A DNA stretch of 64,000 bases. Source: Diplonema papillatum (lineage: Eukaryota > Euglenozoa > Diplonemea > Diplonemida > Diplonemidae). Location of the stretch: contig JAPJBO010000211.1 of the NCBI GenBank assembly GCA_030068145.1, forward strand, positions 62,001 to 126,000, in the 5' to 3' direction. This document shows, in pieces, positions 4,641 through 57,361 of the stretch. The number at the start of each line of letters is the position of its first letter. The stretch's first letter is position 1. The notes under the pieces were generated by a model, which was given only the letters and a program-made list of their open reading frames with translations, did no database searches and was not told where the DNA came from. The translations under genes were made by a program, and so were the position numbers.

Positions 4641-7600
4641 ATGATGGCGGCGCGCGTTCTGGTTTTGGGACTCGCGGCGATCGTGCTGCATGCACTAAGC
4701 GCGCTCGGGCAGGTCCAAGAGGAAGAATACGTGCTGGTCGGTGACATCCAGGTGCCGACCCGGTTTGCGAGGCATGCGAACCCGCTGGGCGCCGCCGCCT
4801 TCACTACGAAAGCGAAGCTTTGGCCATCGGGGCAGGTCAACTACGCCATAGCCGACGACAGCACGAACCCTGCAAACCCGGCTGGGCACTACTTGACGCA
4901 GACCGACCCTCGGATCGCCGATGCGGTGGCGCATTGGGAAGACAAAACCTGCATCCGCTTCCAGAAATGCGCCAGCGCCGCGGCGTGCGTAGTGCCGTAC
5001 ATCCTCTTCGTCTCCGACGATTCGAGCTGCAACTCGCCACTGGGCAACCAGGGTTCTATCAATCGGATCAACCTCGCGAGCTCGTGTACTACAGGTGCGC
5101 CCCTAGGGTTGGCAGTATTATTGGGCTGACCGTTTATAATACAAATAATACAATTACAACAATTGTGACTGCAACTCGCTAGGCAGCACTGACTTTCTGG
5201 TGGGGGGTGTGTGACTATTGGGCAAGTGGAAGCACTAAGCCCGACTGACTGGATACTTTGGTGGCGTTCACGGCTGAGGGAACGCATAGGGTTGATTGTA
5301 TTATGTATTATTTGTAGTGTTGTATTATTTAAACACCTTGCTACAGACGGAATTTTCTAGCGTTATTTGTGGATTAGAAGGTCGGTATTTTAAAGTCTCC
5401 GGTTGACCGTAGAGGCTTGGGTTGAGAAAAGTGAGAGGGTGCCGCTCGTCTCGGGTGATGTGTCGTTCCGTTGTGAAACTCATCACGAAACAACGAAAGA
5501 GGTGCTAGCCTCATGTCCACCGTGTACTGGTGTATTGTTGTGTATTATTCTATCAGGGCGAGTGCCCTGAGTTTTTTAACTGATTGCCCAGACACGGTTG
5601 TAGGGGCCTTCTCCCCGTGACGGATTCGCCTGTGCTCTAGTAGCACGGGTGGTCCTGGCTGTGACGAGCTACGAACAGCCGCCCGACAAACCAGACACAC
5701 ACCGCAGTCCTGTCTGCAGACACTCAGGTTCCGCGCTGATGATGGTCCGCCTTATGTGTCCGTGGCTTAAAGGACCGAAACACGGCGCAGACGGGACCAG
5801 TGCGGTGTTGAGCACATACCCATTCCAAGCACGTTCTTGCAATCCCCCACCAGAAAGTCCAAAAATACCATGGTAAAGAAAGTAGAAGGAGAAAAAGAAG
5901 TTGTCGACAACGAAAGAAAAAAGAACAGAAAATAAGACTCTGCATTCCGCGAAGAAGACTTGGTGCTAGCATCAAACACATTCGAAGCAAGTAGCGCCTT
6001 AACACGAAACTAAGATTTTCGCCCCGTGCATTGCTTCCAGTGCGTTGTCTGTGCTTCACCGATTCACTTTTTGTTCTGGATAGGTTCCGGTGTGTCACCT
6101 GTGCTTCACCTAAATACGTTCAGGCTGCATGGCCCGGGGACGGCATTGCGCCGCCCGTCACCCCCATTCACTTTCACACAGGCAGCGTCATCCACGAAAT
6201 CGGGCACAGTCTCGGGCTCTCCCACGAGCACACGCGCAACGACCGCGACAGCTTCGTCGCCGTCGACACGTCGCTGATCTCGTCGGGGAAGGAGCACAAT
6301 TTCGCGTACACGGGCACCAACGGGCGCGACATCGGGCGGTACGACTACGCGAGCATCATGCACTACGGCTCGACCGCCTTCTCGACGACGGGCTCCCCGA
6401 CGATCGTCGCGCCGCAGCCCATCGGGCAGAGGGTCCGCCTCTCCGACGGGGACAGGGAGACGATCGACTTCATGTATAACGGGTGCTCGGCGCAGTTTGA
6501 CGCCCCGCGGTGTATCTCGAACAGGCAGACCGGATCGACGGTGCTGATCCCGCATTCGAAGGAATTTCGCGTCGAGTTCAACGCGGAGTGGACCTCCGGC
6601 GAGTCGCTGGTGGTGGGCTACGCCGCGACGACCGCGACAGGCGCCGGCGTGACGTTCTCGCGGGCCGACGGGAGCGTGCTGGGAGACAGCGGCGTGGCCC
6701 AAATCGGGTTCACGCCGCCGGCGGCGGCGGCGGGGGGGGCGTACGTGCTGGGCGCGTCGTTCACCGGTGGGGGGGTGAGCACGACTTGCTTGGTCGAAGT
6801 CGAAGTCGCGTCGTCCAGCGTCGTGTGCTTCGGGAAGTCATCCGATGACCTTTCCGCGTGTTCGGGCCACGGGACTTGCACGGCAGACGCGTTGAGCCCT
6901 TGCCAGTGCGAGGCTGGGTATGGGGGTTTGGAGTGCCAAGGGTACGAAACCTGCCCTGATAACATCCAGCACGCGTTCGACGAAGCTGATGACCTCGACT
7001 GGTACGGCGCGGAGCTGGACGCGAGCTACGCCGTGTCGGAGGGTTCCGCGTACTGGCCGTCCGGCTCCTTCGGATACTACTCCCTACCGTCGGCGAGCAC
7101 GTTCACGTACGTCGCGTTCCACGTGTCCCGCCTGGCGGCCGGCAACGCGCACCCCTCGTTGTCGTTCAGGGACAAGTCGGGGCTGATCTGCTGGGAGCTG
7201 CTCCTCAACGACGACTTCCAGCTCGCCAACTACGACGGTGCCAACGCGCAGACGAAGAAGCGGGTCCTGCCGACAACGTGGTACTTCGTCGAGCACGTAT
7301 GAGTTAGGAGCGTTTATTAGTAGCTTCACTAGCTAATCTATAGCGTTTATTGTGTGTTTAGAGGTTCGGTGTTTTAGGGCAGTTTATCTTGCGGCTTGCC
7401 CTTTACTGTATTGGTTGGTGCCAAAAAGACGCAGGCAGGCGTGTTTTGGTGGTCGATCAGAATTCCCAACCTGAAAATGACACAGGGTACTTCCAAAGTG
7501 GAAAAAACGATCAACCGGCACGCACAAACAAAGCAGGGCACGGCGTTTGCGCCCGAATTTGCGAAAGCGAGGCACGGCTGGGATAGCGGTTCTATCTGGA

Positions 7601-10600
7601 GTTCTACGTACCTGTTGAACGCCTTAGCCTTGGTTTGTTCTAGCGCCATCGCATTCTCCAGCGTCCCAGCTTTTCTAGCGTCCCAGCTTTTCTAGCGGCG
7701 CAGACGTTATAGCGTTTTAGCCTTTTCTGGCGCCTTAGCATACATATCTAGCGCCCTAGCTTTCCTAGCATACATCTCTAGCGCCCTAGCTTTCCACGGC
7801 TTAGCATACCCCGAGCTTTTCAAGTGGCGCCGACAGTTGTAAGATCTTAGCTTTTCTGGTGTCCTAGCGCACTTGTGTAGCTTCTTACCCTTTCTAACGT
7901 CATAGCATACTTCTCCAATGCCCTAGCTTTTCTAGCGGCGCGGACCTCGTTAGTGTCTTAGCTTTTCTAGCGCTCAGCGTACTTCTGCAGCGTCGTACTT
8001 TTTCTAACGTGATATCATACTTTTCCAGTGTTCCTAGCTTTTCTAAAGGTGCGGACCTTGATATTGTCTTAGCTTTTCTAGCGCCTTGGCGTACTTCTCC
8101 AGCGTCGTACCTTTTCTAACGTGATATCATACTTCTCTGGTGCCCTAGCTGCTGCAGAGGCGCGGACATTCTTAATGGCTTAGCTTTTCTAGCGCCTTAC
8201 CGTGATAGCATACTTCGCGCCCTCGCTTTTCAAGCAGCGCGGAACCACGCGTACTTATCTCGCCACGTCTCGCAGATCATTGACCAAACGAAGAAAACCG
8301 TGACGCTGCGCATCGACGGCGCCGTGGTGCACGAGGATTACCCGCTGAACGCGGGGTCGTCATGCGCCACCGACGGCCTGAAAACCTTCGCCTTCTTCGA
8401 AGGCGGGTGGCTCGACGACTTTCGGCTGTACTGCCACTCCTACGTCGAGCTGTCCGGGAGCCTTCTGCAGTCGGACCACGGCGACTACACCGCCGGCGGC
8501 GCCGCGCTCACTTTGACGATCGAGGGCGAAGCTGACCAGTGGGTAGACTCCGCGGCGACGAAGCAGTTGATCCTCGAAGGACTGCAGTCGAACTACCCGC
8601 AGGAGGCCGGCTGGGACGGGAAAAAAGACGAGTTGCTGGACGTGAGCCGGATCGTGATCGACGGGTCACGGGTGACGATAGGCCCGCTGAAGCCGGTGGC
8701 GGGGTTCGCGCCGGCGGTCGACGCGTTGGTGACGCTGCGCCTGCTGCCGGAGATGCTGGCCAAAGGCGCGTTGCCAGTCGGCAGCGAGGAGCTGTCGTTC
8801 AAGGTGCACGGGACCTGCACCGCCTCCGCGTCCTTCGACTTCGAGAACGCGAACGAGCTCGTCCTTGCGTCGAGCATGGAGTACTCGACGGCCCAAGCCG
8901 CGACCACTGGAGGGACGTCTGCCCGCTTCCTGGACACGGATGGATCAGTTCTGAGCGTCAATCTCGATTCCTCACAACCAGTCTCGATATCGTTTCACGT
9001 TTGGTTACCCGCTGGAAGCAGCTATCTCGCAGTCGACGTCTCATCCACCGACGGGTCTAATCCGTTGACGCTGCTGGTTGGCTACGGGCAGAAGTTCGCG
9101 TGTATGACCAACGGCGCCGTGCATAGCAGTACCGGTCCTACAGTTGCGGTTGAAACGTGGTACTCGGTCAACCTGCAGTTCGACTGGTCGTCGAGGACGG
9201 TGTCTATATCGGCAAACGGGGCGGATTTCGACGCGGTGATACCGCTTCCTACCGACATGGCGGATGTCGTTGCCCTGGGGCTGTACAGCTTCCGCCTGGG
9301 CGCGCACATCGATGACATCCGGGTTAGCTGCCCGCATCACGCCCCGGCGACTGCGTTGCCTTCCGAGGAGTGCGTGCCGGTGGGGACGCCGGCGCACGTG
9401 CTGTTCTACCCCGGGTCCGATGAGCTGGACCATGCCTCCGATTCCATCGCGGTGGTCCCGTCGTCAGCGGAGGACTGCGCCCTGGCGGGTGTCGCCTGCG
9501 CGGCGCTGGGCGCGTGCTCCGACTCCAACGGCCACGTCTCGGCCGCGAGCCACGGCGCTGTGTCGTGGGGCGCGACGTTCGACTCCCTGCAGAGCTCGAC
9601 GCGGTACAACGTCTGCTACTACGTCTCCGGACTGAGCGGCGGGTCGTGGCTCATGCTCGATACCCCAATCGAAACGTGCGCTGGCGCAGGTATGTCGCAC
9701 ACACGGCGAACCGCTCTACCCCTCGCATTTGCCGTATAAGATCGAAGATCTCGAAGGATTTAAACCAATCGTGTAGTGTGCAATTCCCTCATATCCCCCA
9801 ACACTTGAAAACTTGATCCCTTATGTCCCGATAGGATTGCCTGGGGATTCCAACGAGAGCCAACACGACTACATGACGGCTGGAAAATTAAAGCTGTTCC
9901 AACGAGAACTGACTTCTACGTGGTTATTACCCTGTCGCCAAACCCGAGAAACGCCGTATATTTCCCCCTCGCTTGTCCACCCACCCGTGGCCCTGCTTTT
10001 AAAGCCCGGTCTCTGGAGGCATCATAGAGTACCTTTGCACGGTCTTTTTACGCCTGTTTTTCACGAAGCATCGTGTGCAAGGAGAAGAGTTCAAGAACCA
10101 CTTTCCCAGAATCTCCAACGAAATGTCTCGTTGCATTCGGCCTCGCGAACATGTGCCTGGCAGGCAGGCACGATTCGAGTTTGCGGAAGGATTACAGAAA
10201 CTGGACGACACAAATCCTGGAACACCAAGCAGCCTCCGAGGCATTTGTCAAGGAATTGGCCTGAGCCACATCAGGAAAGCGGATCTCGGGGTCTTCGCCT
10301 GCAAAGACCAAGTGTGACTGCGCACAAAGTCAGCGGGACCGTGTCCCCGACACAACCAGAGGCACTTACTCTGCCGGGAATCACTTCCAGAGGTGTCAAA
10401 ATGGCTGGTCTATTTTCCGTATGTCCCCTTCCCACGCATGCGTATTGACAGAGCCCGCTCCGGAGCCTGTGTATGCTAGAAAAAGTACCAACTCTCCACA
10501 GCGCTTTCAACTGTTTCACCACCAACTGGTTCTCCATCCACTGCGGCGCCCTCGACTACTGCACCACCGACTGCAGCACCACCAACAGCAGCTCCACGAA

Positions 10601-12480
10601 CCTTGTCACCACCAACAGTGGCTCCATCAACCATGGCACCACTAACAGTGGCTCCGCCAACCACGGCACCGTCAACCTTTTCACCACCAACAGTGGCTCC
10701 GTCAACCGTGGCACCACCAACAGCTGCTCCATCAACCATCGCACCACCAACAGCTGCTCCATCAACCATCACACCACCAACAGCTGCTCCATCAACCGTG
10801 GCACCACCAACAGCTGCTCCATCAACCGTGGCACCACTAACAGTGGCTCCATCAACCATGGCTCCATTAACCATAGCACCACCAACAGCTGCTCCATCAA
10901 CCATGGCTCCACCAACAGCTGCTCCATCAACCATGGCTCCACCAACAGCTGCTCCATCAACCATGGTACCACCAACATCTGCACCATCAACCTCGGTACC
11001 ATCCACAGTGGCTCCGTCAACTACGGCTCCGCCAACCTTGGCACCGCCAACAGCTGCACCATCAACCTCGGCACCACCAACAGCTGCTCCATCAACCATG
11101 GCACCGCCAACAGCTGTTCCATCAACCTCAGTACCATCAACAATGGCTCCGTCAACTACGGCTCCGTCAACCTTGGCACCACTAACAATGGCACCGCCAA
11201 CAGTGGCGCCCCTGACCCCGGTACCACCAACGGCAGCACCACCAACCATGGCGCCGCTAACCGCAGCTCCGTCCACGGTGCCGCCAAGAACAGTGGCTCC
11301 GCCGACGGCGGGGCCTCCGACGGCCGCTGCGGCGGCAACAGCTCCACCACTAACAGTGGCACCACCAACAGTAGCACCACTAACAGCGGCACCGCCTACA
11401 GTGACACCACCAACAGTGGCACCACTAACAGTGGCACCGCCAACAGTGGCACCACCAACAGCGGCACCACCAACAGCGGCACCACCAACAGTGGCACCAC
11501 TAACAGCGGCACCGCCTACAGTGACACCACCAACAGTGGCACCACAAACAGTGGCACCGCCTACAGTGGCACCACTGCCTACAGTGACACCACCAACAGT
11601 GGCACCACTAACAGTGGCACCGCCAACAGTGGCACCACCAACAGCGGCACCACCAACAGTGGCACCACTAACAGCGGCACCACCAACAGTGGCACCACTA
11701 ACAGCGGCACCACCAACAGTGGCACCACTAACAGCGGCACCACAAACAGTGACACCGCCAACAGTGGCACCGCCAACAGTGGCACCACTAACAGCGGCAC
11801 CGCCAACAGTAGCACCACTAACAGCGGCACCGCCAACAGCGGCACCACTAACAGTGACACCGCCAACAGCGGCACCGCCAACAATGGCACCGCCAACAGT
11901 GGCACCGCCAACAGCGGCACCGCCAACAGTGGCACCACTAACAGTGGCGCCGCCAACCCCGCCAACCGTAGCACCACCAACAGCGGCACCGCCAATAGTG
12001 GCACCGCCAACAGAGGCACCACCAACAGTGGCACCACCACCAGTGGCGCCGCCGACAGTGACACCATCAGCAACCCCGCCACTCCCGACGGCAACGACGG
12101 TGTCAACCGCCTCGCCGTCTGTCGCACCCGCGCCTCCGCCGGCAGCACCGACGCCGCCGCCCGCCGACGCGCCCGGCGAATCGGACCCGGGCCAAGCTCC
12201 GTCCGACGACGAGCTGGCGTCGGAGGCGGCGGGCGGCGGCGGGCAGGGGCTCGACACGACGCTCGTCGCGTCGCTGACCGCGGTGGCCGCGGCGATGGCC
12301 GCCGTGGCCCTCGCATACTTCCTCCGGGTGCACGGGCCCGGCGCCGTCAAAAGGCCGAGCGAGCTGCGCGCCCGCACCGACTCGGGCGACGTAAACGACT
12401 CCCCGTACCAGCAGCACCTCGAAACCCCGCCCGGGTCGCACGAGCCCATGGCGTTCCACCCCGACGACCTGCCTTTCTAA
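4641..12480 (+). CDS. Gene A: astacin-like (M12A) membrane metalloprotease with EGF, beta-sandwich modules and mucin-like stalk
   Basis: Proposed join 4641-5094, 6182-7296, 8276-9689, 10502-12480 (about 1653 aa). All introns are GT-AG and phases match (1, 0, 1). A signal peptide (residues 1-23) is followed by LVGDIQVP near 33-40, like the FxGDI Asp-switch of astacin propeptides. The zinc site is HEIGHSLGLSHEH (His156, Glu157, His160, His166) and the Met-turn is SIMHY (209-213). Then come an EGF-like module (Cys 378-403), a concanavalin/LamG-like region, a conserved spacer domain, a second beta module and a gene-A-only Cys module (about 877-994). A Pro/Thr/Ala stalk encoded by exon 4 precedes one TM helix near 1581-1602 and a short tail. 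Predicted role: cell-surface endopeptidase. Substrate is unknown. The start is the first ATG of the frame; a second ATG follows immediately. Confidence 0.85.
5552..5848 (+). repeat. Dispersed repeat R5, copy 1, in intron 1 of gene A
   Basis: About 297 bp from ATCAGGGCGAGTGCC to GTTCTTGCAATCCCCC, nearly identical to 27386-27688 in the same orientation. A short open frame runs through both copies but matches nothing I know. The end motif (CATTCCAAGCACGTTCTTGC) has weak echoes near 2392 and 22744. Confidence 0.8.
7388..7535 (+). repeat. Dispersed repeat R3, copy 1, in intron 2 of gene A
   Basis: Shares AAAAAGACGYAGGCAG, GATCAGAATTCC and CGATCAACCGGCACGCAC, in the same order, with 26173-26312. 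Partial copies lie at 58713-58795 and, more diverged, near 29980-30110. Confidence 0.7.
7655..8240 (+). repeat. Degenerate minisatellite filling most of intron 2 of gene A
   Basis: Loosely repeated blocks built from AGCTTTTCTAGCG, CCTTAGCATACTTCTCCAG and GCGCGGAC. Units are irregular, so the array is old. Confidence 0.65.
9729..10060 (+). repeat. Dispersed repeat R7, copy 1, in intron 3 of gene A
   Basis: Begins near CGTATAAGATCGAAGATCT and includes a CCCTCGCTTGYCCACCCACCC-like block. Related copies lie at 18199-18500, about 20500-20690 and 36130-36400. It makes up a large part of the predicted intron 3 (9690-10501), which B and C lack. Confidence 0.6.
10560..12080 (+). repeat. Coding repeat array of gene A (APPTVAPLT-type stalk)
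   Basis: In-frame 15- and 30-bp units encode (A/S)PPTVAPLTAAPPT-like repeats. Density of Thr and Pro suggests an extended, O-glycosylated stalk. The regular unit keeps other frames open on both strands; those frames are artefacts. Confidence 0.85.
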
Positions 12481-12796: not shown

Positions 12797-12890
12797 TTGT
12801 TGGTACTAAGAATTAGTAGTTTGGCAGCGCACCACATGAAACTTGCTGGAGCGGGTGAGTTTCGCTAGTGCGCACGAACAAGGCAAACAT
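12797..12890 (+). repeat. Dispersed repeat R1, copy 2
   Basis: TTGGTACTAAGAATTAGTAG core and GGGTGAGTTTCGCTAGTGCG tail, as in the other R1 copies. Confidence 0.65.
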
Positions 12891-13020: not shown

Positions 13021-13024
13021 CATT

Positions 13025-14205: not shown

Positions 14206-14214
14206 TCCCGTGAA

Positions 14215-18500: not shown

Positions 18501-18504
18501 GATT

Positions 18505-36093: not shown

Positions 36094-36129
36094 ATCGTAA
36101 TTAGGGCGGCTGTAATTCGAGTACATTTT

Positions 36130-36400
36130 AATTAGTCGTATACGATCGAAGATTAATACTGTTCCGACGAGAACTAACACTTGTTCAAAGCTTATTACCC
36201 CGTCGCCATCCCGAGAAAACCACCTTAAGTTACCCCTCGCTTGCCCACCCGCCCTTGCCATTTTTTCAAGTCCAGTGCGCTGAGGCGTCACGATGACATA
36301 CACACGAGAATCTTTGCATGACCTTTCTACGTTGGTTGCGCACCATCGATCTTGCATCACGCAGGAGCAAGGGTGAGAGCAGCGAGTACGGAGGCGTCTA
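36130..36400 (+). repeat. Dispersed repeat R7, copy 4
   Basis: CGTATACGATCGAAGATTAA, CCCCGTCGCCATCCCGA, CCCCTCGCTTGCCCACCCGC and TTGCATGACCTTTCTACG. It lies between the pseudogene stop and the satellite. Confidence 0.7.
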
Positions 36401-36450
36401 GCTGCGCTGACACGACCTGTAAACGGCCCCCCGAAAACACCCTGTTGCTG

Positions 36451-39400: not shown

Positions 39401-39453
39401 CCATCAAAGTAACAGTGTTGACTCAGGCCGATGCGGGCTACATGGCAACCCCT
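36451..39453. repeat. Perfect 69-bp satellite, 43 full units plus 36 bp
   Basis: Unit starts TTGACTCAGGCCGATGCGGG and ends CATCAAAGTAACAGTG. Starts fall exactly every 69 bp from 36451 to 39418, and all units I read are identical. Since 69 is divisible by 3, one frame stays open through the array on each strand: a 23-residue repeat in a 1070-codon plus-strand frame, and a 23-residue repeat in a 1184-codon minus-strand frame. There is no start context, known domain or substitution pattern to favour coding. Confidence 0.97.
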
Positions 39454-39837
39454 GCTCAACATGTGTGCACGCGGGGGGCTCAGGGCCACATTCATTGCGA
39501 ATGTGTTCGTGGTGTCGGCCGCAGGAGGAGTCTTTTTGGCCAGCCAAAGAGAGGAAAAGAGTGAAAGAGTACGTACAGTAAGAGAACGAGTGTAAAAGAA
39601 CGGAGGCAGCACAAAACTACCAGACCAGCGGAGGCCACCGCAAAAAGATTCTCACCTTTTCCTCATCCCTCAAAACCAGCAGCAATAACAACAACCCCCC
39701 TACAACCGGTCAAAATCTGCAAACCCCAGGTCTAAACAAGTACCCTACAATTACACAAAACCAAATCAAGAAACAAAAAGAAAATCCAATGTATCTTTCG
39801 TCGTCGCTCGTGAGTTTCAAGCTCCCCTCCCTCTCTC
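39454..39837. other. Flank between satellite and gene B promoter
   Basis: A-rich, no gene seen. Confidence 0.4.
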
Positions 39838-40179: not shown

Positions 40180-43100
40180 ATGCAGCGCGTCCGCGTTGCT
40201 GCGGCGCTGGCTTGCGTCGGGTGGCACGTGGCCGCCGTTGAAGGACGGCTGGCGGAGGCCGGGCTGGACTATTTCCTAGTCGACGACATGCAGGTGCCCC
40301 TGGAGTACAGCCGGCACTCGAGCCCGCTGAGCGCGATCTCGTTCAAGACGAAAGCCTCGCTTTGGGACCAAGGGAAGCTCAACTACGTCATCGAAACCGC
40401 GGCCACCAACCCGAGCTCCCCAGCCGACTCCTTCCTGGCCGACGATGACGCCCGGATCAGCGCGGCGGTGGCCCACTGGGAGGCCAACACGTGCATCCGG
40501 CTCACCAAGTGCGCTTCAGAAGCCGTCTGCGTGCAGCCGTACCTTCTCTTCGTCTCCGACGCGGAGCACTGCAACTCGCCTGTAGGCCGCCGGGCCAGCG
40601 GCGTCAACCAAATCAACCTCGCCACCGCTTGCTCGACAGGTATGGGTTTGTTTCAAGTGACGAGCGAGGGGAAGGAATCAAAAGACAGGCGCTTTGCAAC
40701 ATTTGCGCGTGCCGTTTGATCCTTATTCCCCTAACGTTTACCTATTTCATTTTTAAGTTACCGACCCCCCCCCCCCCCCCCCCCCCCCGGGTCCCCCCGT
40801 GAACGTGTCACCCCCTTTTGTACAAAAGTCCGCTGGGTGACATACTCAAGGGGGGTGACATACTTAAGGGCTTGCAGAGGTCATCTGAGCCTCGGCTGGG
40901 GGGAAACGTCTTCTACGACAAGAGGCTGAATGCTGGGCCCATGGCAAGGTACCAGATGCTGAAAGACCTGCCCGACTACCAACCCCAGCTCCTCAGGGCC
41001 TCCTGCCGGCAGGGAGACCCTGCCAACGCGCTGGACCTCGACGCAACAACTGCGGCAAGCTCGAACGACTGGGCATAACGCGCCGCAGGCCGAACCAATG
41101 CGCCACATTGACGATCGGACGCGTGACCAGGCACGAACGCGAAGAGAGATAATTGAACCGTTGCAAAGCAGACCAGTTGACGATCGGACGCGTGACCAGG
41201 CACGAACGTGAAGAGAGATGTTTGAACCGTTGCAAAGCAGACCAGTGGCATGAATGAGGTACGTGATATGTGATTGTCATCATAGGCGATCCACTGCTCT
41301 CCTTCTCGCGCATGGCAGACATAATGGCCCTAGGCTCGGGTGCTTCCGGCTCAGCATTCGCTTAAACTTCTGCATTGAACGCCCTGAGTTTCAAGTGTCC
41401 CGATTCATCGAGGGAATCCTTGAGGCACCTAAACGTACAGGGTACTTGGGTTGTTTGTATATGAGAATTACACCTACTTTAAAATACTACGAGGAGTCGG
41501 GACTGTCTTCGAAATCAAGTCAAAGCGTACACATCTGATCATGAATTCAACGACACCGCAGGAGCCGTGATCCATGAAATAGGCCACAGCTTGGGGCTCT
41601 CCCACGAGCAGTCCAGGAATGACAGAGACAGTTTCGTGGCGGTGGACTTCACGCAGATCGAGGAGGGTTTTGAGCATAACTTCGACCAGACCGGCGCGAA
41701 CGGGCGGGACGTCGGGGCGTACGACTACCGGAGCATCATGCACTACAGCTCGCGCTCGTTCGCCATCGGCAGCCTGCCCACCATTGTGTCACCGGTGGCT
41801 ATCGGGCAGCGGTCGGGACTGTCGGACGGTGATGTCGCTGGGATACAGTTCTTGTACAACGGCTGTTCCGACACGTTCGCGGCGCCGAAGTGCATCGTCA
41901 GCAGGGATACGACCGAAGTGCTCCTGATCCCTCACTCACAGGACTTCTTGGTCGAGTTCAATGCGGAGTGGGATGCGTTGTCGTCGATGACAGTCACCTA
42001 CGGGTCAACCACCGCGCCCGACACCACGTTTCAGGTAGCCTCGGGTTCGAATGTCGGCGACTGCGGATCGACGCAGTTGACATACAACCCGTCTGACGCC
42101 GATGCGAACAGCGTCTTCGTCTTGGCCGCCACGTTTACTTCGACCGGGATTGGCGCTGAGTCGACTACTTGTCAAATTCAGGTGAAAGTGGCATCCTCGA
42201 ACCAAGTGTGCTTCGGGATCGCAGCGGACGATCCGAACGTGTGCAGCGGGCGTGGGACGTGCACGTCAGACAAGCTAAGTCCTTGCTCGTGCACAGGCGA
42301 GTACGGCGGGTTGCAGTGCCAAGGCTACGCTGTTTGCCCTGACAACTTGGAGTTCACCTTCGACGACATAACCGACCTCGACTGGTCGAACTCCATGATC
42401 GACGCATCGCTCAGCGCCAAAGGCGGCAGCTCGGCCTACTTCGGGTCCGAGGTATACGGCACGTATACTGTGGCCACCCCAAGCCGGTACACGTACATTT
42501 CTTACCGGATGGCCCGCGACCTGGCAAGCCCCAATGACCCTGTCTTGCAGTTTTTCAACGCGACCAGCCAGATGTGTTGGCAATTAACTATGCAAGCGGG
42601 CACCCTTGTGTTCACCTCCGAGACCTCAGCCTTCGTATCTTTGACCGTGGAGACGAAGAAGTTTTACTTCGTGGAGCACCTGATCGACTACGACACCGGG
42701 ACGATGTCCATCCGCATTGACGGAATGGTGCAAGTTGAAGATTTCGCGGTGAATGCTGCTTCTAACTGCTTGACTTCCGGGGTTGGAGGGGCTGTTTTCT
42801 TCTACGAAGGCTGGCTCGATGAGGTGCGGATGTACTGCCATTCGTATCTGCAGATGACAGGCACTCTGACAGAGCCTGATCAAAGTGACCTGGTCAGCGG
42901 CGGCCTGACGTTGACGGTCGTAATCGAAGGAGACGTCGATTCCTGGGTGGACACAGAGGCCACGAAGCAGGCGCTTATAGACGGCTTCACTGCCGACGAG
43001 GTCTGCGTGTCGCCCAACGGGTGGAACGCGCTGAAGTCAACGATGATGGACACTTCGCTCGTCACCATTTCGGGTTCGACGATGACCCTGGGCCCGCTGA

Positions 43101-45349
43101 ACGCGGCGGCTTCGTATTCCGCGTTGCTGTCGACGGCGATCTCCTTGGTTTTACAGCCGAGCATGGTGCAAAGTGGTAGTCTGCCCCTGGGGAGCGACGA
43201 CCAGTCCTTCACAATTCCCGGGACTTGCGCCGGCTCGACCGAGTATTCGTTCGACGATGGGCTGCCTTCGGGACTGAGTGCGGCCGCTTTCGGCTTCAGC
43301 AGCACCACCTTTAGCGAAGGAACCCACTCGCTCGAATTCCTGGATACAGGTTTCGTCGCGCCGATGTCGGTGACGGCTCAGGGGGCGGCTGTAAGGCCGG
43401 ATACGGTGTCATACTACGTTCGACACGGGGATAACACCAAATACGTAGGCTTCGAAGTGGAGAGCCCGGACTCTGCGTCCCTGCAATTGCTTGCCGGCTT
43501 GGAATCGAAGTTGGCTGTAGGGTTTGGCTCGTTCCAGGGATCGGTAGCTGCCATTTCGGTAGACGTCTGGTACTTCGTGTCAATTTCGTTCAACTGGACA
43601 GCGAGGACCGTGTCCGTCAGCATCGACGGCGTTGCAGACGCAGGGTTGGCGAATCTGGCTCTTCCGTCCGACTTTCAGTCGGTGAACCGGGTGAGTGCGT
43701 ACACGTTTTCTCTGCCCTCATTCATCGACAGCGTCCGAGTGGAGTGTTCTACTTGTGTTGCCGCCACTAATGCACCTGCTACCAATGCACCTGCGACCAA
43801 TGCGCCTGCGACCAATGCACCTCCTACCAATGCACCTCCTACCAAAGCACCTCCTACCAGTGCACCTCCGACCAAAGCACCTCCTACCAATGCACCTCCT
43901 ACCAAAGCACCTCCTACCAATGCACCTCCTACCAAAGCACCTCCTACCAGTGCACCTCCGACCAAAGCACCTCCTACCAATGCACCTCCTACCAAAGCAC
44001 CTCCTACCAGTGCACCTCCGACCAATGCACCTCCGACCAAAGCACCTCCTACCAATGCGCCTGAGACCAGTGCACCTGAGACCAATGCATCTGCTACCAA
44101 TGCATCAGCTACCAAAGCACCTGCTACCAAAGCACCTCCTACCAATGCACCTCTTACCAAAGCGCCTCTTACCAAAGCGCCTCCTACCAAAGCACCTCCT
44201 ACCAATGCGCCTGAGACCAGTGCACCTGAGACCAATGCATCTGCCACCAATGCATCTACCAATGCACCAGCTACCAAAGCACCTCCTACCAAAGCACCTC
44301 CTACCAATGCACCTCTTACCAAAGCGCCTCTTACCAAAGCGCCTCCTACCAAAGCACCTCCTACCAATGCGCCTGAGACCAGTGCACCTGAGACCAATGC
44401 ATCTGCCACCAATGCATCTACTAATGCACCTGCTACCAATGCACCTCCTACCAATGCACCCCCTACCAAAGCACCTCCTACCAAAGCGCCTCCTACCAAA
44501 GCACCTCCTACCAATGCGCCTGCGACCAATGCGCCTGAGACCAGTGCACCTGAGACCAATGCATCTGCCACCAATGCATCTACTAATGCACCTGCTACCA
44601 ATGCACCTCCTACCAATGCACCCCCTACCAAAGCACCTCCCACCAATGCAAATCCTGAGACAATCGCTCCTACAACCGCTCCTGAGACAACCGCTCCCGA
44701 GACAACCGCTCCTGAGACACCCGCTCCCGAGATAACCGCACCCGAGACTACCGCTCCGGAGACTAGCAGCCCAGAGATCGTCAAGAAGTGGCTGGCATCT
44801 CTCAAGTTCGAAGTGGATCTGACCTCCAATTCGGTAGGTGCCACCGGATTGCGACTGGTTTTAGAGCTTGAAAAACTGTTTCCAAACGCAGGTTTCGAGT
44901 TTGAGACTGCCTGTGTGACGAAGGTGGGCGCGGCACAGGTCTGCCACAGTAGCTCTGATCTGCTGAGCAGCGTCGATAACAATCCCGATAGTAGGCTTAT
45001 TCGCGAGGCCAACGTGCAACAGGCAACATCAGACCAGTGGGATTTCTTCTTCAGTGTCGCTCAGGACCGGGTGTCCGCAGCAAGCTTGCAGGCTACTGTT
45101 TACGCGTCGGCCGTGTCTATTGCCGCTGTAGTCTCCCCGGCCGCTACGTTGGCGAGTGTCGGTGTCACGGTGCTTGAGACACCTGCTCCACCCACAGACG
45201 ACGATGATGACTTGTCAAAGTTTGCCATTGCCGGCATTGTTGCCGGATGCGTTCTTTGCATAGCGTGCGCTGCGGCCATCGGTGTCGTCCTCAGAAAAAG
45301 GATCACACTGAAATACGCGACTGAACCAATTGATGAACGCACAGTGTAG
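40180..45349 (+). CDS. Gene B: astacin-like (M12A) membrane metalloprotease, paralogue of C
   Basis: Proposed join 40180-40639, 41562-45349 (about 1415 aa); GT-AG intron, phase 1, same place as in A and C. Signal peptide 1-22. The Asp-switch-like motif is FLVDDM (32-37), so GDI has become DDM. Zinc site HEIGHSLGLSHEQ with His158, Glu159, His162 and His168; Met-turn SIMHY near 211-215. An EGF-like module (about 381-406) precedes beta module 1, a conserved spacer domain (about 586-710) and beta module 2 (to about 886). The stalk (888-1226) is APPTNAPPTK-like. Unlike A and C, a unique region of about 140 residues follows the stalk, before a TM helix (about 1374-1398) and a basic start to the tail. 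Predicted cell-surface protease; substrate unknown. Introns 2 and 3 of A are absent. Confidence 0.87.
40765..40788 (+). repeat. 24-base C-run in intron 1 of gene B
   Basis: Uninterrupted C-run followed by GGGTCCCCCC. Its length is prone to sequencing error. Confidence 0.8.
41110..41247 (+). repeat. 69-bp tandem duplication in intron 1 of gene B
   Basis: Two units beginning GACGATCGGACGCGTGACCA (41110 and 41179) differ at a few positions. The unit length equals that of the satellite but the sequence is unrelated. Confidence 0.9.
43768..44680 (+). repeat. Coding repeat array of gene B stalk
   Basis: In-frame 15-bp units of the ACCAAAGCACCTCCT type encode TNAPP/TKAPP repeats. Higher-order blocks repeat, marked by ETSAPETNASATNAS. 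Confidence 0.9.
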
Positions 45350-48187: not shown

Positions 48188-51100
48188 ATGCAGCGCGTCC
48201 GCGTTGCTGCGGCGCTGGCTTGCGTCGGGTGGCACGTGGCCGCCGTTGAAGGGCAGCCGGCGGAGGCCGGGCTGGACTATTTCCTGGTCGACGACATGCA
48301 GGTGCCCCTGGAGTACAGCCGGCACTCGAGCCCGCTGAGCGCGATCTCGTTCAAGACGAAAGCCTCGCTTTGGGACCAAGGGAAGCTCAACTACGTCATC
48401 GAAACCACGGCCACCAACCCGAGCTCCCCAGCCGCCTCCTTCCTGGCCGACGATGACGCCCGGATCAGCGCGGCGGTGGCCCACTGGGAGGCCAACACGT
48501 GCATCCGGCTCACCAAGTGCGCTTCAGAAGCCGTCTGCGTGAAGCCGTACCTCCTCTTCATCTCTGACGCGCAGCACTGCAACTCGCCTGTAGGCCGCCG
48601 GGCCAGCGGCGTCAACCAAATCAACCTCGCCTCCGGGTGCTCGACAGGTACGGGGTTTCACTTTAAGTGAGGAGCGAGGGGAAGGAATCAAAGGTGCTCG
48701 CTTCGCCTTGTTTGCGCGTGCCGTTTTGATCCTTCATCTTGTATCGACCTCTTTCATTTTCAGGTTATCAGAAAGTTCTGATCAACCACCAATACGCCCT
48801 AATTAAGTCTTTTAGCCCGCACAAATTGGTATCATTGTGCCAATGCACCCCCCGCCCGATCGAACGTTGTCGTGCCATTCCTGGATGTAGTGCAACACGT
48901 GTGGGCGGACTCTGAGTTGCCCCGGAGCAACCTATCTTTTATTTTTTTTTTCGGTGAGAAAAAACACGCAGTCTTTTTTCGCTTGGTCTTATTCTCCCAA
49001 CAATATAGGTGAACACCCAAACACACACCTTCTCCCTTTCCGGTTTTTTGGCGCCACTGACCCGCAGGTCAGGGGAAAAAACTTCAAATTCCCTCCCACC
49101 CGTCCCTTGGAAAGGGGAGTTCGCACGGTTTCGTATTTGAAAACCCTTGCTCCTCCGGTTGGATTTCCTTCCGCGTGATTGGCACACGGAAGAGGGTACC
49201 CCGCAGAAGTGTTTCCTCCTGCGAGTCAACGGGCCCTCTTTTTCCGTAGCGGGAAGAATTCAATTGACCGGCCCCCCTCGCAACCTCGCAAGGACGGGAG
49301 CAAGGTGGTCCTGTGTTTCTCCACGGGACCCCGACGCTCGCTACGTCGTAATAAAAACCCAAACGCAGAATAGTCTCTTCTTCCTCCTCTCGAACGTCTT
49401 CCTCCAACGTGTATTCTTGTTTTCTTGCCGACCCTCCTAACACCATGCAAAAAGATCGGCCGAGAGAATTTTTTTTGACCTTTTTTTGTGAACCGTGATT
49501 TTTTTTTAGCCAGCCAATTTCGTTTTGTTGGCTAAGCGGAAAACCCCTGGACCCGGGGACCAAAAAATATGTGCGTGGTTCGTGGGTCTTTACCAGATGC
49601 GGGGCACCGGGCATGGAAACTACAGGTTTTCATTGGGAAGGACGGGAATCGACCCACTGGTTCATTTCTTTGCTGGCCCATGTAGCAGACCTTTTTCGGC
49701 GAATTTGTGCTCACGTTCAGTTCCTATGAAGAGAACCGTGAAAACTACCCGGGGACCACAAAATTATGTGCGTCTTTCAAGAAGAAGGGAGTTCCCGCGG
49801 GTTCCGGGTTTGCGGTACTTTCCATTTCTTTTTCGGGAAACTTGCAGGATCGGCACGCCGAATACAAGAGGTACCTCTCGTATTCGACCCGACAACGACA
49901 GTTACTACACTTGATCTTAGCCAAAAGGCCGAGAAGGTATGCCCAGAATCAGGAGAAAGCAAAAGCAGGTGTGTGGAAGATCAAGCGCGGATGATGCGCT
50001 GAAGACAGGAAACGAGAAAAAGGGTGGCCCAGGGGGCATTGCCACGGCCTTAGTTTTGGGTTAGAATACAACGCATCTGTTGCGATTATCTGCATCGCCT
50101 GTAGAACGTAATCGAGTTTCGTAGTTTTGGGTAGAACGTAAACAATCGGTGGCCTTTCGTGGCTACCTCTTAGAGCGCACCGTGTCATGTTTGAATTTCT
50201 ACCAGTACGGTTAGGTACCAGGAAAGCCTGCTACACGGAAGCCAAGCTTCACGTGTTCGGCGGTACTGCAGAGCCACGGGCCTATGGGTCAAGTGGCTAC
50301 CGATTTCCCACACAAAAGCATCAAGGCTTGGCGCACCTTGGGGCTTGGCGCTTGCGGTGTCGTCGAGACGGTCAGCCACAGGGCAGAGCGGACGGGGTTG
50401 TGGCACTGTGTGCTGCCTCCGACTCAAGCTTTGCAAGCTGTGGTTGACCTGGACCAGGAGCGGCCTTTTTCGTTTTTCAAAAACAAAACTACGCATTTCT
50501 TCACGAAAAGCCTCTCGGCAAAAACCCGTTTTCACACTTCTTCTTCTTCCCGCAGCTGTTGTATGGATCGCCTGCATACACTCAGCTACGCGTGCCTTCA
50601 TTGCGAAGGTTACTGCTGCGGCCTTCTGGGTGGCAGCTGTGTGCTGTGTCAGGTCAAGTAGCGAGATCTGGGGCCCTGTGATGTATGCAGGGCTGCATCC
50701 TCGTGTTGTAGCCGTGTTGTGTATAAGGTTTCGTGAGGGCCTGGTCAACCACCTCATCACTGAAGGGCACAAACCTTTCGCGACCGTGATTGGACAGTCG
50801 GGATTGCCGGGGGCGGGTCTCCATGAAGAAGAGAAAAGTAAAGCAAAACCTGCCCCCTGCGCCTGCTGTCTCCGGCTGCTTCGACGACACATACTACTAC
50901 TAGGGGCAGCAGGACACCTTGTCCAGGTGGGTAGCGTCACCTCCCCGATGCGAGCTGATTGCCGGATGGATGCGGGCAACTGCACCTTTGTACCACCGAC
51001 ACCCTCTGGGTGCTTCCAGGTTACGCGCAATCGGGGGTTTGAAACATGATGATTAATATCAAAAGCCCGCACCCACACGGCGTTGACTGTGTCTGGTCTT

Positions 51101-54100
51101 TGTAAGGGCTGCCTTGATGTTACTTTGATCAAACTCACACTTGGTATCGCATGACACTAGCTCTCGTGCTCGTGCTGGTTGAGGAGTGTGCGCAGGAAAC
51201 TAGCGGGATACCCTGCTGATAAGCTCTGCCACACTCGGGGTGGCGTCAAGGCGCTTGCGGGCCTCAGCCCTGTTTTTCTCCACCGCATTTTCATCATATC
51301 TTGCTCTCTACAGGGCTTCCCTGGTCGTCCTGACGTTCCTCCCGAACTCAACATTTCGTCTCTGGGGGTCTTAGGGCCATTTTGGGTACTGCCAGGGTGA
51401 TACACATCTGTGCATGAATTCAACGACACCGCAGGGGCCGTGATCCACGAAATAGGCCACAGCTTGGGGCTCTCCCACGAGCAGTCCAGGAATGACAGAG
51501 ACAGTTTCGTGGCGGTGGACCTCACGCAGATCGAGGCGGGCTACGAGCTGAACTTCGACCAGACCGGCGCGAACGGGCGGGACATCGGGGCGTACGACTA
51601 CCGGAGCATCATGCACTACAGCTCGCGCTCGTTCGCCATCGGCAGCCTGCCCACCATTGTGTCACCGGTGGCTATCGGGCAGCGGTCGGGACTGTCGGAC
51701 GGTGATGTCGCTGGGATACAGTTCTTGTACAACGGCTGTTCCGACACGTTCGCGGCGCCGAAGTGCATCGTCAGCAGGGATACGTCCGAAGTGCTCCTGA
51801 TCCCTCACTCACAGGACTTCTTGGTCGAGTTCAATGCGGAGTGGGATGCGTTGTCGTCGATGACAGTCACCTACGGGTCAACCACCGCGCCCGACACCAC
51901 GTTTCAGGTAGCCTCGGGTTCGAATGTCGGCGACTGCGGATCGACGCAGTTGACGTACAACCCGTCTGCCGCCGATGCGAACAGCGTCTTCGTCTTGGCC
52001 GCCACGTTTACTTCGACCGGGATTGGCGCTGAGTCGACTACTTGTCAAATTCAGGTGAAAGTGGCATCCTCGAACCAAGTGTGCTTCGGGATCCCAGCGG
52101 ATGAACCGAACGTGTGCAGCGGGCGTGGGACGTGCACGTCAGACAAGCTAAGTCCTTGCTCGTGCACAGGCGAGTACGGCGGGTTGCAGTGCCAAGGCTA
52201 CGCTGTTTGCCCTGACAACTTGGAGTTCACCTTCGACGACATAACCGACCTCGACTGGTCGAACTCCGTGATCGACGCATCGCTCAGCGCCAAAGGCGGC
52301 AGCTCGGCCTACTTCGGGTCCGAGGGATACGGCACGTATACTGTGGCCACCCCAAGCCGGTACACGTACATTTCTTACCGGATGGCCCGCGACCTGGCAA
52401 GCCCCAATGACCCTGTCTTGCAGTTTTTCAACGCGACCAGCCAGATGTGTTGGCAAACGACTATGCAAGCGGGCACCCTTGTGTTCACCTCCGAGACCTC
52501 AGCCTTCGTATCTTTGACCGTGGAGACGAAGAAGTTTTACTTCGTGGAGCACCTGATCGACTACGACACCGGGACGATGTCCATCCGCATTGACGGAATG
52601 GTGCAAGTTGAAGATTTCGCGGTGAATGCTGCTTCTAACTGCTTGACTTCCGGGGTTGGAGGGGCTGTTTTCTTCTACGAAGGCTGGCTCGATGAGGTGC
52701 GGATGTACTGCCATTCGTATCTGCAGATGACAGGCACTCTGACAGAGCCTGATCAAAGTGACCTGGTCAGCGGCGGCCTGACGTTGACGGTCGTAATCGA
52801 AGGAGACGTCGATTCCTGGGTGGACACAGAGGCCACGAAGCAGGCGCTTATAGACGGCTTCACTGCCGACGAGGTCTGCGTGTCGCCCAACGGGTGGAAC
52901 GCGCTGAAGTCAACGATGATGGACACTTCGCTCGTCACCATTTCGGGTTCGACGATGACCCTGGGCCCGCTGAACGCGGCGGCTTCGTTTTCCGCGTTGC
53001 TGTCGACGGTGATCCCCTTGGTTTTGAAGCCGAGCATGGTGCAGAGCGGCACTCTGCCCCTGGGGAGCGACGACCAGTCCTTCACAATCCCCGGGATTTG
53101 CGCCGGCTCGACCGAGTATTCGTTCGACGACGGGCTGCCTTCGGGACTGAGTGCGACCGCTTTCGGCTTCAACAACACCACCTTTAGCGAAGGAACCCAC
53201 TCGCTCGAATTCCTGGCTACAGGTCTCGTCGCGCCGATGTCGGTGACGGCTCAGGGAGCGGCTGTAAGGCCGGATACGGTGTCATACTACGTTCGACACG
53301 GGGATAACACCAAATACGTAGGCTTCCAAGTGGAGAGCCCGGACTCTGCGACGGTCCTGCAATTGCTTGCCGGCTCCGGGTCGAAGTTGGCTGCAGGGTT
53401 TGGCTCGTTACAGTCATCGACAGCCGCCATTTCGGTAGACGTCTGGTACTTCGTGTCAATTTCGTTCGACTGGACAGCGAGGACCGTGTCCGTCAGCATC
53501 GACGGCAATGCAGACGCAGGGTTGGCGAATCTGGCTCTTCCGTCCGACTTTCAGTCGGTGAACCGGGTGAGTGCGTTCACGTTTTCTCTGCCCTCATTCA
53601 TCGACAGCGTCCAGGTGGAGTGTTCTACTTGTGCTGGCGCCACTAATGCGCCTGCTACCAATGCACCTGCCACCAACGCACCTGCTACCAATGCACCTGC
53701 GACCAATGCACCTGCTACCAATGCACCTGCGACCAATGCACCTGCTACCAATGCACCTGCGACCAATGCACCTGCTACCAACGCACCTGCTACCAATGCA
53801 CCTGCTACCAGTGCACCTGCTACCAATGCACCTGCCACCAATGCACCTGCTACCAATGCACCTGCTACCAACGCACCTGCTACCAACGCACCTGCTACCA
53901 ATGCACCTGCTACCAATGCACCTGCTACCAATGCACCTGCTACCAATGCACCTGCCACCAATGCACCTGCTACCAATGCACCTGCTACTAATGCACCTGC
54001 TACCAACGCACCTGCGACCAATGCACCTGCGACCAATGCACCTGCTACCAGTGCACCTGCTACTAATGCACCTGCTACCAATGCACCTGCGACCAATGCA

Positions 54101-57100
54101 CCTGCTACCAATGCACCTGCCACCAACGCACCTGCTACCAGTGCACCTGCTACTAATGCACCTGCTACCAATGCACCTGCGACCAATGCACCTGCTACCA
54201 ATGCACCTGCGACCAATGCACCTGCGACTAATGCACCTGCTACCAGTGCACCTGCTACCAGTGCACCTGCTACCAATGCACCTGCGACCAATGCACCTGC
54301 GACTAATGCACCTGCTACCAATGCACCTGCCACCAACGCACCTGCTTCCAGTGCACCTGCTACTAATGCACCTGCTACCAATGCACCTGCGACCAACGCG
54401 CCTGCGACCAATGCACCTGCCATCAACGCACCTGCCACCAGTGCACCTGCGACCAATGCGCCTGCTACTAATGCACCTGCTACCAGTGCACCTGCTACTA
54501 ATGCACCTGCGACCAATGCACCTGCTACCAACGCACCTGCCACCAATGCACCTGCTACCATTGCACCTGCGACTAGTGCACCTGCCACCAACGCACCTGC
54601 TACCATTGCACCTGCGACCAACGTGCCTGCGACCAATGCACCTGCTACCACCGCACCGGTCACCAGTGTACCCATTTCCAGTACACCTATCACCAGTGCA
54701 CCGGCTACTACCGCACCTGCGACCAATGCACCAGCTACATCTGCACCAGCCACCAGTGCACCTGCCACCAATGCACCAGCCACATCTGCACCTGCTACCA
54801 GTGCACCTGCGACCAATGCACCTGCGACTAATGCGCCTGCTACTAATGCACCTGCCACCAATGCACCTGCTACTGATGCACCTGCCACCAGTGCACCTGC
54901 GACCAATGCACCTGCCACCGACGCACCTGCTACCAGTGCACCTGCACCTGCACCTGCTACCACCGCACCGGTCACCAGTGTACCCGTTTCCAGTACACCT
55001 ATCACCAATGCACCTGCTACAGCTGCACCGGCCACCAATGCACCTGCCACCAGTGCACCTGCTACCACCGCACCTGCCACCAATGCACCTGCTACCAACG
55101 CACCTGCCACCAATGCACCTGCGACTAATGCACCTGCTACCAGTGAACCTGCTACCAGTGCACCTGCCACCAATGCACCTGCTACTGATGCACCTGCCAC
55201 CAGTGCACCTGCGACTAATGCACCTGCGACCAATGCACCTGCGACCAATGCACCTGCTACCAATGCACCTGCGACCAATGCACCTGCTACCACCGCACCG
55301 GTCACCAGTGTACCCGTTTCCAGTACACCTATCACCAATGCACCTGCTACAGCTGCACCGGCCACCAATGCACCTGCTACCACCGCACCTGCCACCAATG
55401 CACCTGCTACCACCGCACCTGCCACCAGTGCACCTGCTACCACCGCACCTGCCACCAATGCACCTGCGACTAGTGCACCTGCTACCAGTGAACCTGCTAC
55501 TAGTGCACCTGCCACCAATGCACCTGCTACTGATGCACCTGCTACCAGTGCACCTGCTACCAGTGCACCTACGACTAATGCACCTGCTACCAGTGCGCCT
55601 ACCACCAATGCACCTGCCACCAACGCACCTGCTACCAGTGCACCTGCGACCAACGCGCCTGCGACCAATGCACCTGCTACCACTGCACCGGTCACCAGTG
55701 TACCCGTTTCCAGTACACCTATCACCAATGCACCGGCTACCACCGCACCTGCGACCAATGCACCTGCTACCAGTGCACCTGCTACTAATGCGCCTGCCAC
55801 CAATGCACCTGCTACTAATGCACCTGCTACCAGAGCACCTGCGACCAATGCACCTGCCACCAACGCACCTGCTACCAGTGCTGCGACGAACGCGCCTGCG
55901 ACCACTGCACCTGCGACCAATGCACCTGCTACCACCGCACCTGTCACCAATGCACCCACATCTGCACCTGCTACCAGTGCACCTGCTACAACCGCACCTG
56001 CCACCACCGCACCGGTCACCAGTGTACCCGTTTCCAATACACCTATCACCAATTCACCTCCTACTAACGCACCTGCTACCAGTGCACCTGCCGCCACCGC
56101 ACCTGCTACCTTTGCACCTGCTACTACCGCACCGGTAACCAGTGTACCCGTCTCCAGTACACCTATGACCAATTCACCTCCTACCAAGGCTCCTGTGACC
56201 AACGCGCCTGCTACGAGTGCACCTGCGACCAACGCACCCGCTACCAGTGCACCTGTCACCAACGCACCTGCCACCATTGCACCTGCTACCAACGCACCTG
56301 CTACCAGTGCACCCGTCACCAACGCACCCATTTCTAATGCACCTGCCACCATCGCACCTGCTACCCGGGCACCACCTACAAGTGCGCCATCAACGAATCA
56401 ACCTTCCAATGCACCCGCTACTGACACACCGTCTGGTGCACCACCTACCAACGCACCCCTCACACAGGCGCCATTCACCAATGCGCCAGCCACAACTGCA
56501 CCAAGCACAGACTCACCCACAGACGTACCACCGACGAACACACCTTCCAATGCACCCCAGTCTGGTGCACCCACGACCGATGTACCCCTCACACAGGCAC
56601 CACCTACCGACGCACCCCTCACACAGGCACCACCTACCGACGCACCCCTCACACAGGCACCACCTACCGACGCACCCCTCACACAGGCACCACCTACCGA
56701 CGCACCCCTCACACAGGCACCACCTACCGACGCACCCCTCACACAGGCACCACCTACCGACGCACCCCCCACACAGGCACCACCTACCGACGCACCCCCC
56801 ACACAGGCACCACCCACCCGTGCACCGCCGACCAGGGCGCCGCCCACACATGCGCCTCCCACGAACATGCCCACGGTCGCTCCGCCGACGGGCGCGCCAG
56901 TGTTCAACCCGTTTACCTTAGTTCCCGAGCTCCCCCGTGTGACCCAAGTGCCCACTGCTTTCCCGCCGTTGTCCTTCACGCCGGCCCCGACCACGTCGGT
57001 TCCGACCGAGAGCCCGGCTGTCGGCCAGGGGGGTGCCAGCCCGGCCCCGGGGGGCACGGAAGACCCCGCACAGGCAGCGCTCGCGCCGGAGGAAGACTCC

Positions 57101-57361
57101 GACGAGCCGCCGACGGCCGCGATCGTGGCCGCCACCGCGGTCGCCGGGGTGCTGGCCGCCGGGGCTGTCGTCGGCGTCGTGCTCGTCAAGACGGGCGTGG
57201 TCGCCTTCGGCGCCGCGGCTGCCGGGGGCGGCGCCGCCGCTGGCGGCGCGGGTGCCGGCGCGGGGGGCGCCGCGGCGGTCCAGGGGGCCGGTGTCGGGCA
57301 GGCAGTGGCTGCGGGGGACGGCGCGTTCTTGTTCGATCCGCGGTTCGACGTCATCGTGTAG
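48188..57361 (+). CDS. Gene C: astacin-like (M12A) membrane metalloprotease with a very long stalk
   Basis: Proposed join 48188-48647, 51435-57361 (about 2128 aa); GT-AG intron of 2787 bp, phase 1. Residues 1 to about 886 are nearly the same as gene B: signal peptide, FLVDDM (32-37), zinc site HEIGHSLGLSHEQ (His158, Glu159, His162, His168), Met-turn SIMHY with Met213, EGF-like module (Cys 381-406), beta modules and spacer domain. The stalk (about 889-1965) is a much longer (TNAPA)n array interrupted by TTAPVTSVPVSSTPIT blocks, then a LTQAPPTDAP array. One TM helix lies near 2047-2070, followed by a Gly/Ala-rich tail ending FLFDPRFDVIV. The tail differs from those of A and B. Predicted surface protease held far from the membrane. 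Confidence 0.87.
49841..49940 (-). ncRNA. U2 snRNA-like sequence, antisense in intron 1 of gene C
   Basis: Reading the minus strand from 49940, the sequence starts ATACCTTCTCGGCCTTTTGG and continues CTAAGATCAAGTGTAGTA. This is the canonical U2 5' end, with stem-loop I (CGGCC/TTTT/GGCT) and the branch-point-pairing GTAGTA. A strong hairpin follows (49860-49885, an 11-bp stem with one G-T pair), where stem II would be. The usual stem IIa sequence and a clear Sm site (AATTTTTGG type) are not evident at normal spacing; AATTTTGTGG lies too far along, near 49770. It is either a divergent functional U2 or a pseudogene with an intact 5' domain. Confidence 0.75.
50214..50456 (-). repeat. Dispersed repeat R4, inverted copy in intron 1 of gene C
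   Basis: Reverse complement of 24753-25022, with indels. It ends beside the 50503-type sequence shared with about 17217. Confidence 0.85.
51059..51380 (-). pseudogene. Possible decayed coding remnant in intron 1 of gene C
   Basis: A minus-strand frame reads AEARKRLDATPSVAELISRV and later CEFDQSNIKAALTK, with two internal stops before its final TGA. It has a protein-like, helix-forming character but no recognised family. It may be a transposon or host-gene relic. Confidence 0.25.
53642..56390 (+). repeat. Coding repeat array of gene C stalk, (TNAPA)n
   Basis: 15-bp units ACCAATGCACCTGCT with synonymous third-base variants and Asn/Ser/Thr/Asp swaps. Higher-order blocks carry ACCGGTCACCAGTGTACCCG. 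Other frames and the antisense strand stay open for up to 933 codons as a by-product. Confidence 0.95.
56590..56815 (+). repeat. 30-bp coding array in gene C, LTQAPPTDAP
   Basis: About eight near-identical units of CACCCCTCACACAGGCACCA plus CCTACCGACG. The last two change Leu to Pro (CCC for CTC). Confidence 0.93.

Follow-up and report, generated by a model that had tools for sequence, protein, structure and literature searches.

The 64,000-nucleotide stretch of the Diplonema papillatum genome analysed here (the window: contig JAPJBO010000211.1, positions 62,001 to 126,000, or C211:62001-126000) holds three intact paralogous astacin genes on one strand (+), which we call G1, G2 and G3. The gene group noticed in the original prediction, made from the sequence alone, is real, and the interpretation attached to it was supported in part. 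We favour, at a little better than even confidence, the reading that G1-G3 encode pre-pro M12A astacins anchored in the membrane by a C-terminal helix, whose stalk would lift the ectodomain while jelly-roll modules hold glycan-rich material and the protease cuts.

Gene models were built from paralogue alignment and splice sites, which gave four exons and 1653 residues for G1, two exons and 1415 residues for G2, and two exons and 2128 residues for G3. The frames join without internal stop, the introns (three in G1, one each in G2 and G3) are all GT-AG, and a phase-1 intron interrupts the catalytic domain just upstream of HExxH. With closed frames, such introns and full astacin domains, the three genes stand as the same-strand paralogues that had been predicted. 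Their features are listed below (EGF, IG1, LG1, SPC, LG2 and FN are module names; TM, transmembrane helix, as predicted).

4641..5094 (+): G1 exon 1, with signal peptide, pro-region (YVLVGDIQVP) and N-terminal half of the astacin domain
6182..7296 (+): G1 exon 2, with HEIGHSLGLSHEHTRNDRD...SIMHY, the IG1 module, the EGF-like module and the first part of LG1
8276..9689 (+): G1 exon 3, with the remainder of LG1, SPC (8441-8818), LG2 (8822-9334) and the extra module FN (9356-9688)
10502..12480 (+): G1 exon 4, with the Pro/Thr/Ala stalk, TM (~12259-12315, hand-derived from residue numbers) and tail
40180..40639 (+): G2 exon 1, with a weak signal peptide, pro-region (YFLVDDMQVP) and N-terminal half of the astacin domain
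41562..45349 (+): G2 exon 2, first part, with the catalytic half (41562-41866), IG1 (41867-42205) and EGF-like module (42206-42334)
within 41562..45349 (+): G2 exon 2, middle, with LG1 (42335-42841), SPC (42845-43228) and LG2 (43232-43750)
within 41562..45349 (+): G2 exon 2, end, with the stalk (~43.76-44.83 kb), membrane-proximal domain, TM (~45236-45292) and an 18-residue tail
48188..48647 (+): G3 exon 1, with a weak signal peptide, pro-region and N-terminal half of the astacin domain
51435..57361 (+): G3 exon 2, first part, with the catalytic half (51435-51739), IG1 (51740-52078) and EGF-like module (52079-52207)
within 51435..57361 (+): G3 exon 2, middle, with LG1 (52208-52714), SPC (52718-53101) and LG2 (53105-53626)
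within 51435..57361 (+): G3 exon 2, end, with the stalk (~53.64-57.09 kb), TM (~57131-57187) and a Gly/Ala-rich tail

The predicted M12A catalytic domain was borne out by a Pfam search, in which the joined domains of G1, G2 and G3 scored 137-140 bits against Astacin (E 1e-40 to 7e-40), far over the cut-off of 22.5. Each carries HExxHxxGxxHExxRxDRD and SIMHY, so that by sequence all three combine the zinc signature, the Met-turn and the profile score of M12A enzymes. In G1, the match to the solved TLL1 and BMP1 domains runs unbroken across the intron 1 junction. Among the catalytic matches examined in the genome, the long zinc signature is present in 22 of 27, and so is the Met-turn (SxMHY, 22/27). 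The pro-regions of animal astacins hold an aspartate-switch motif, FxGD; the candidate stretch reads YVLVGDI in G1 and YFLVDDM in G2 and G3, and the match to the proastacin chain 6ht9 begins at G1 residue 29, the site of YVLVGDI. Such a pro-region would keep the enzyme latent until cleavage.

To describe the ectodomain, module profiles from the window genes were run on six-frame translations of most collected loci (L001, L002, L005-L008 and L013 were skipped). A module of ~113 residues, IG1, about as large as an Ig-like domain, separates the catalytic domain from EGF, and all 27 catalytic matches examined have it; G1 has an extra 111-residue module (FN) after LG2 that is also present in six other loci. 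The order first proposed (signal, catalytic domain, EGF, LamG-like modules, stalk, TM) largely held, but it had overlooked IG1 in all three genes and the extra module of G1. The LG1 and LG2 profiles recover each other's members (three rounds) and we therefore treat the two as one family. This profile comparison agrees with the two LamG-like modules initially called, one of which was modelled as a jelly-roll: the structure model of LG1 has this fold. At the profile level, six of 37 LG members match Laminin_G_3 (PF13385) with E values no higher than 1, the lowest being 2.6e-4, and LG1 of G3 is not among them. Likeness to the jelly-roll of BT_1020 (5mqr) and to sialidase/GH16 relatives is at 13% identity, and glycan binding by this analogy is at most predicted. 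The single EGF module is readable by eye from its six cysteines, but its best Pfam score (19.3) stays under the cut-off (24.3).

What had been called a conserved spacer is indeed present between the LamG-like modules, but it is itself a 128-residue module, SPC, with 61 matching rows in the genome, which repeats together with LG. By sequence, LG-SPC is a repeating unit, present one and a half times in each of the window genes. The unit also occurs in four copies at C100, which has no row in the listed Pfam Astacin (PF01400) matches. In a single open frame of 2985 residues with an astacin (L037, C1121), nine SPC alternate with at least eight LG modules. Searches of SPC and IG1 against solved structures gave no convincing match (lowest E 0.17 for SPC, 0.026 for IG1), the structural fold comparison barely tests SPC, and pattern-limited scans confirmed no relatives of the G3 ectodomain or SPC in viral contigs, nor of SPC in a genome-contig collection. 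SPC looks like an uncharacterised module.

The stalks are 599 (G1), 374 (G2) and 1159 (G3) residues long by our window measure, replacing the ~340-1080 given before. They are encoded by arrays that are 15-nucleotide minisatellites; two of the six frames are open in G3 and three in G1 and in G2, so that frame openness proves nothing. The same arrays would be expected if the stalk were a gene-model artefact, that is, a minisatellite lying beside a secreted astacin and outside the protein. Differences between adjacent units at lag 15 speak to this: for codon positions 1/2/3 of the proposed frame they are.051/.133/.339 in G3,.067/.100/.248 in G2 and.146/.225/.268 in G1, hence ratios of position 3 to position 1 of 6.6, 3.7 and 1.8, respectively (counted over pairs of units that differ at five or fewer sites). 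Position 3 clearly exceeds position 2 in G3 and G2, and longer lags (30, 45 and 75) go in the same direction. When codons were compared in a fixed 15-nucleotide unit, a synonymous excess was seen in G3 (0.54 vs 0.33 expected) and G1 (0.52 vs 0.32), and none in G2 (0.24 vs 0.35), a failure that counts for an artefact; this test covers only part of the units (86/181 in G3, 46/52 in G1, 33/58 in G2) because registers drift. On the other side, a third-position excess exists in the proposed frame of all three genes, and in G2 and G3 the stalk shares one uninterrupted frame with the catalytic half, EGF and LamG-like modules, with the TM and stop in frame. We read the third-position excess as suggesting selection on the stalk protein, and regard an artefact as very improbable.

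Past the stalk, a hydropathy scan detects a strong C-terminal segment in each protein (2.10 in G1, 2.82 in G2 and 2.42 in G3, over 19 residues); weaker hydrophobic stretches occur in the membrane-proximal domain of G2 (up to 1.95) and inside the SPC module of G3 (1.77). Pfam offers no trusted match for the G2 membrane-proximal domain, the top one being Podoplanin (E 0.11), and the tails after the TM differ among the three genes. These C-terminal segments and coding-like repeats agree with the proposal of membrane-anchored astacins on repeat stalks, and the contrast it drew between a conserved ectodomain and divergent stalks, membrane-proximal regions and tails holds across G1-G3. Ser and Thr make up 26-27% of the stalks, with 0, 8 and 0 NxS/T sites in G1, G2 and G3. 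The stalk may be O-glycosylated and extended, raising the ectodomain above the cell coat, where the jelly-rolls would grip glycan-rich material (prey wall or matrix) and the protease would cut the protein therein. The released peptides could nourish the cell, for which amino-acid uptake is known. Gain or loss of 15-nucleotide units in frame would shift stalk length, so that reach could evolve fast while the catalytic end is conserved. Altogether, latency, glycan capture, O-glycosylation, surface placement, signalling and a feeding role are properties that we infer for these proteins. The genome paper describes amino-acid uptake by D. papillatum and its use of peptides and polysaccharides, and argues that it ruptures live prey (PMC10161547).

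Several observations weigh against this reading. The structure model is good for LG1 only, with SPC blocks at 28-73, and prediction from a single sequence of 750 residues gave a mean pLDDT of only 33; besides, a jelly-roll fold is not a function, and glycan binding by the LG modules stays predicted. Five of the 27 catalytic matches (L003, L004, L018, L030 and L032) deviate from the long zinc signature, and in three of these (L003, L004 and L030) HExxH itself is lost, so that some members may not be proteases. G1 shows a weak contrast among codon positions (small step from position 2 to 3). Of the predicted signal peptides, that of G1 is clear, but those of G2 and G3 look weak, only the G1 leader passing the hydropathy scan at 1.5. 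Finally, the stalk was not found in the DNA read for 18 of 22 other regions, which include multi-module ones and a further copy upstream of the window start (G0), the DNA between G0 and G1 having none; membrane anchoring is predicted for the window genes, not for the family as a whole. A non-microsatellite Pro/Thr-rich frame was present in the other four regions. Of these, L015 and L017 show a clear TM, L019 has a borderline one, and the available stretch of L024 has none.

The scarcity of stalk frames fits secreted or shed digestive enzymes that would work in soluble form, their stalk being a linker open to cleavage; secreted modular hydrolases often have proline/threonine linkers. The TM segment and tail seen in all three window genes, and in L015 and L017 as well, argue the other way, and we think this alternative quite unlikely. 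The proteases could instead act on the cell's own surface, as sheddases or in coat remodelling, with a role like that of kinetoplastid gp63 or animal meprin beta rather than in feeding. TM anchoring, the differing tails and the membrane-proximal regions (the G2 domain, and an EGF-like stretch read by eye before the TM of L017) would fit placement and regulation, and M8 (gp63-type) matches are also present in the genome (17 rows on 10 contigs). Set against this, ~40 loci with glycan-type modules seem more than self-processing needs; we rate it unlikely, if less so than soluble enzymes. Capture and cutting of glycan-rich material by anchored astacins is the reading that we retain.

With meprins, the membrane-anchored astacins of animals, G1-G3 have in common the astacin domain and, as read from the sequence, a candidate EGF-like module and a predicted C-terminal TM, and solved meprin beta chains match the catalytic half of G3 (best E 1.1e-15); in contrast to meprins, the window genes carry LamG-like and SPC modules and a long repeat stalk. 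The closest solved catalytic domain to G1 is that of TLL1, of the BMP1/tolloid group (phmmer, E 2.9e-22), from which the window genes differ by their predicted TM anchor and by having no CUB match: seven exon translations gave no Pfam match to MAM or TRAF (meprin) or CUB (tolloid) at E up to 1. The model of LegP-type bacterial astacins (NF045530) scores G1 at 172.5 and G2 at 175.8 bits, compared with 139.8 and 137.2 for Pfam Astacin, but this is under its family cut-off of 300 bits and the other modules lie outside that model. By sequence, G1-G3 are thus not meprins, not tolloids and, by cut-off, not LegP. The gp63 (leishmanolysin) proteases, metzincins on the surface of kinetoplastids (the sister group) that occur in gene clusters and are usually GPI-anchored, belong to another peptidase family, M8. 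In this genome, the open frames that hold gp63-type matches at C3, C184, C829, C1308 and C1572 are 3330 to 9229 residues long.

The window genes are part of a much larger set. A PF01400 profile search of the 271 Mb genome returned at least 139 rows, 60 of which (hand count) form two classes of near-equal score (28 and 32 rows), almost all of them within long frames. The HExxH half is touched by 49 further rows, short fragments included, and the other 30 are mostly N-terminal exons; after dropping six duplicate-contig rows and three within-gene repeats, ~40 non-transposon astacin loci remain. A tree of 16 rows built on five modules (without the short paralogues holding only the catalytic domain and IG1, and without L003 and L004) groups G2 and G3 with multi-module genes of other contigs (SH-aLRT/bootstrap 99.6/100) and places G0 and G1 apart from them with weak support; against this placement, in the catalytic half alone G1 comes closest to G2 and G3 (67% identity). 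A local tandem family as the unit is not supported: astacins are genome-wide, stalk and TM are also found in L015, L017 and perhaps L019, and G2/G3 group with genes of other contigs.

The two large classes are LINE-like elements, of which one copy each was read (L012:3053-7531, -; L014:1754-6547, +), and an astacin fragment is captured in their first large open frame. In L012 the astacin exons are fused without an intron, which makes a spliced mRNA the likely source; the nearest host gene among the collected loci is L029 (C153; 80% over the first 145 residues). Candidate pseudoproteases are L003 and L004 (C538 and C15; NLVGH and NLIGH) and L030 (C534; HEICL), in which other conserved residues are kept. 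L028 (C556) has three consecutive copies of the catalytic half after one N-terminal exon, an arrangement that recalls the repeated gene parts described in the text of the D. papillatum genome paper (PMC10161547).

Within the array, G2, G3 and a broken copy are the only close relatives. G2 and G3 share 97% nucleotide identity over the ectodomain, and ~240 bases upstream of them also match, inside a 90% block, while their first introns align only as short stretches at their ends; this could reflect either exon conversion or a recent duplication in which the intron was replaced. Their dN/dS (0.025/0.038) is uninformative at such distance. The broken copy had been correctly called: at 91-93% nucleotide identity to G2, it opens in a PAT repeat and changes frame, and no catalytic domain was found in it (34.6-36.1 kb). 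G0 lies at -10.3 to -2.5 kb (tblastn; its 3' end is outside the model).

34631..36090 (+): broken copy, with a PAT repeat and then LG1-SPC-LG2 pieces whose frame shifts

A 69-bp satellite (43.6 copies, 100% matches) at window positions 36449-39453 is open on both strands; the long open frames at 36058-39651 (both strands), considered as a stalk, were rejected as being this satellite. A Pfam scan of 129 further open frames of at least 95 residues in the window revealed no gene, its single match (E 0.0062) being attributed to chance. Elsewhere in the genome, the spliced-leader core, which we take to be common to diplonemids and kinetoplastids, has 613 exact matches vs 0 for a reversed control. 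The light-harvesting family PF00504 had 0 matches, and a photosynthetic alga, considered at first as the source, was rejected. The ~100 listed all end in TTTATTG, and cores are regularly spaced at ~2.0 and 6.0 kb (e.g. C91:17062-23064 and C192:18273-30207). In the two copies examined, GC directly follows TTATTG, and both carry what is presumably the whole Diplonema leader.

Fewer than 400 astacin sequences are scattered outside Holozoa, Discoba being among the groups, and horizontal transfer from holozoan donors has been proposed, according to a 2023 review (PMC9848320); astacins in this supergroup are therefore not new as such. Text searches (subscription papers and supplements being outside their scope) found no paper on diplonemid astacins or on the domain order of G1-G3, in line with the initial impression that the order was unfamiliar among described astacins; the one paper that mentions both diplonemids and astacins, a PGK review, deals with nematode astacins (PMC7729029). 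The main text of the D. papillatum genome paper has no match to protease, peptidase or astacin (PMC10161547). The stalked, lectin-like astacins appear to combine parts that are mostly known in a new way. Tentatively, and at clearly less than even confidence, we suggest that diplonemids independently built a large and old astacin arsenal, combining a protease with repeating lectin-like jelly-rolls and SPC, some of it on a mucin-like stalk of fast-evolving length; such a non-animal radiation would be of unexpected scale if astacins outside Holozoa were only scattered horizontal transfers. With ~40 non-transposon loci in several architectures, this one diplonemid genome offers ample material for testing the horizontal-transfer view. 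Diplonemids are among the most abundant marine microeukaryotes in the words of the genome paper (PMC10161547), and D. papillatum is described as genetically tractable in the text of PMC8611851. Peptides being known food of this single-celled marine predator, the family makes its digestion of prey protein a testable question.
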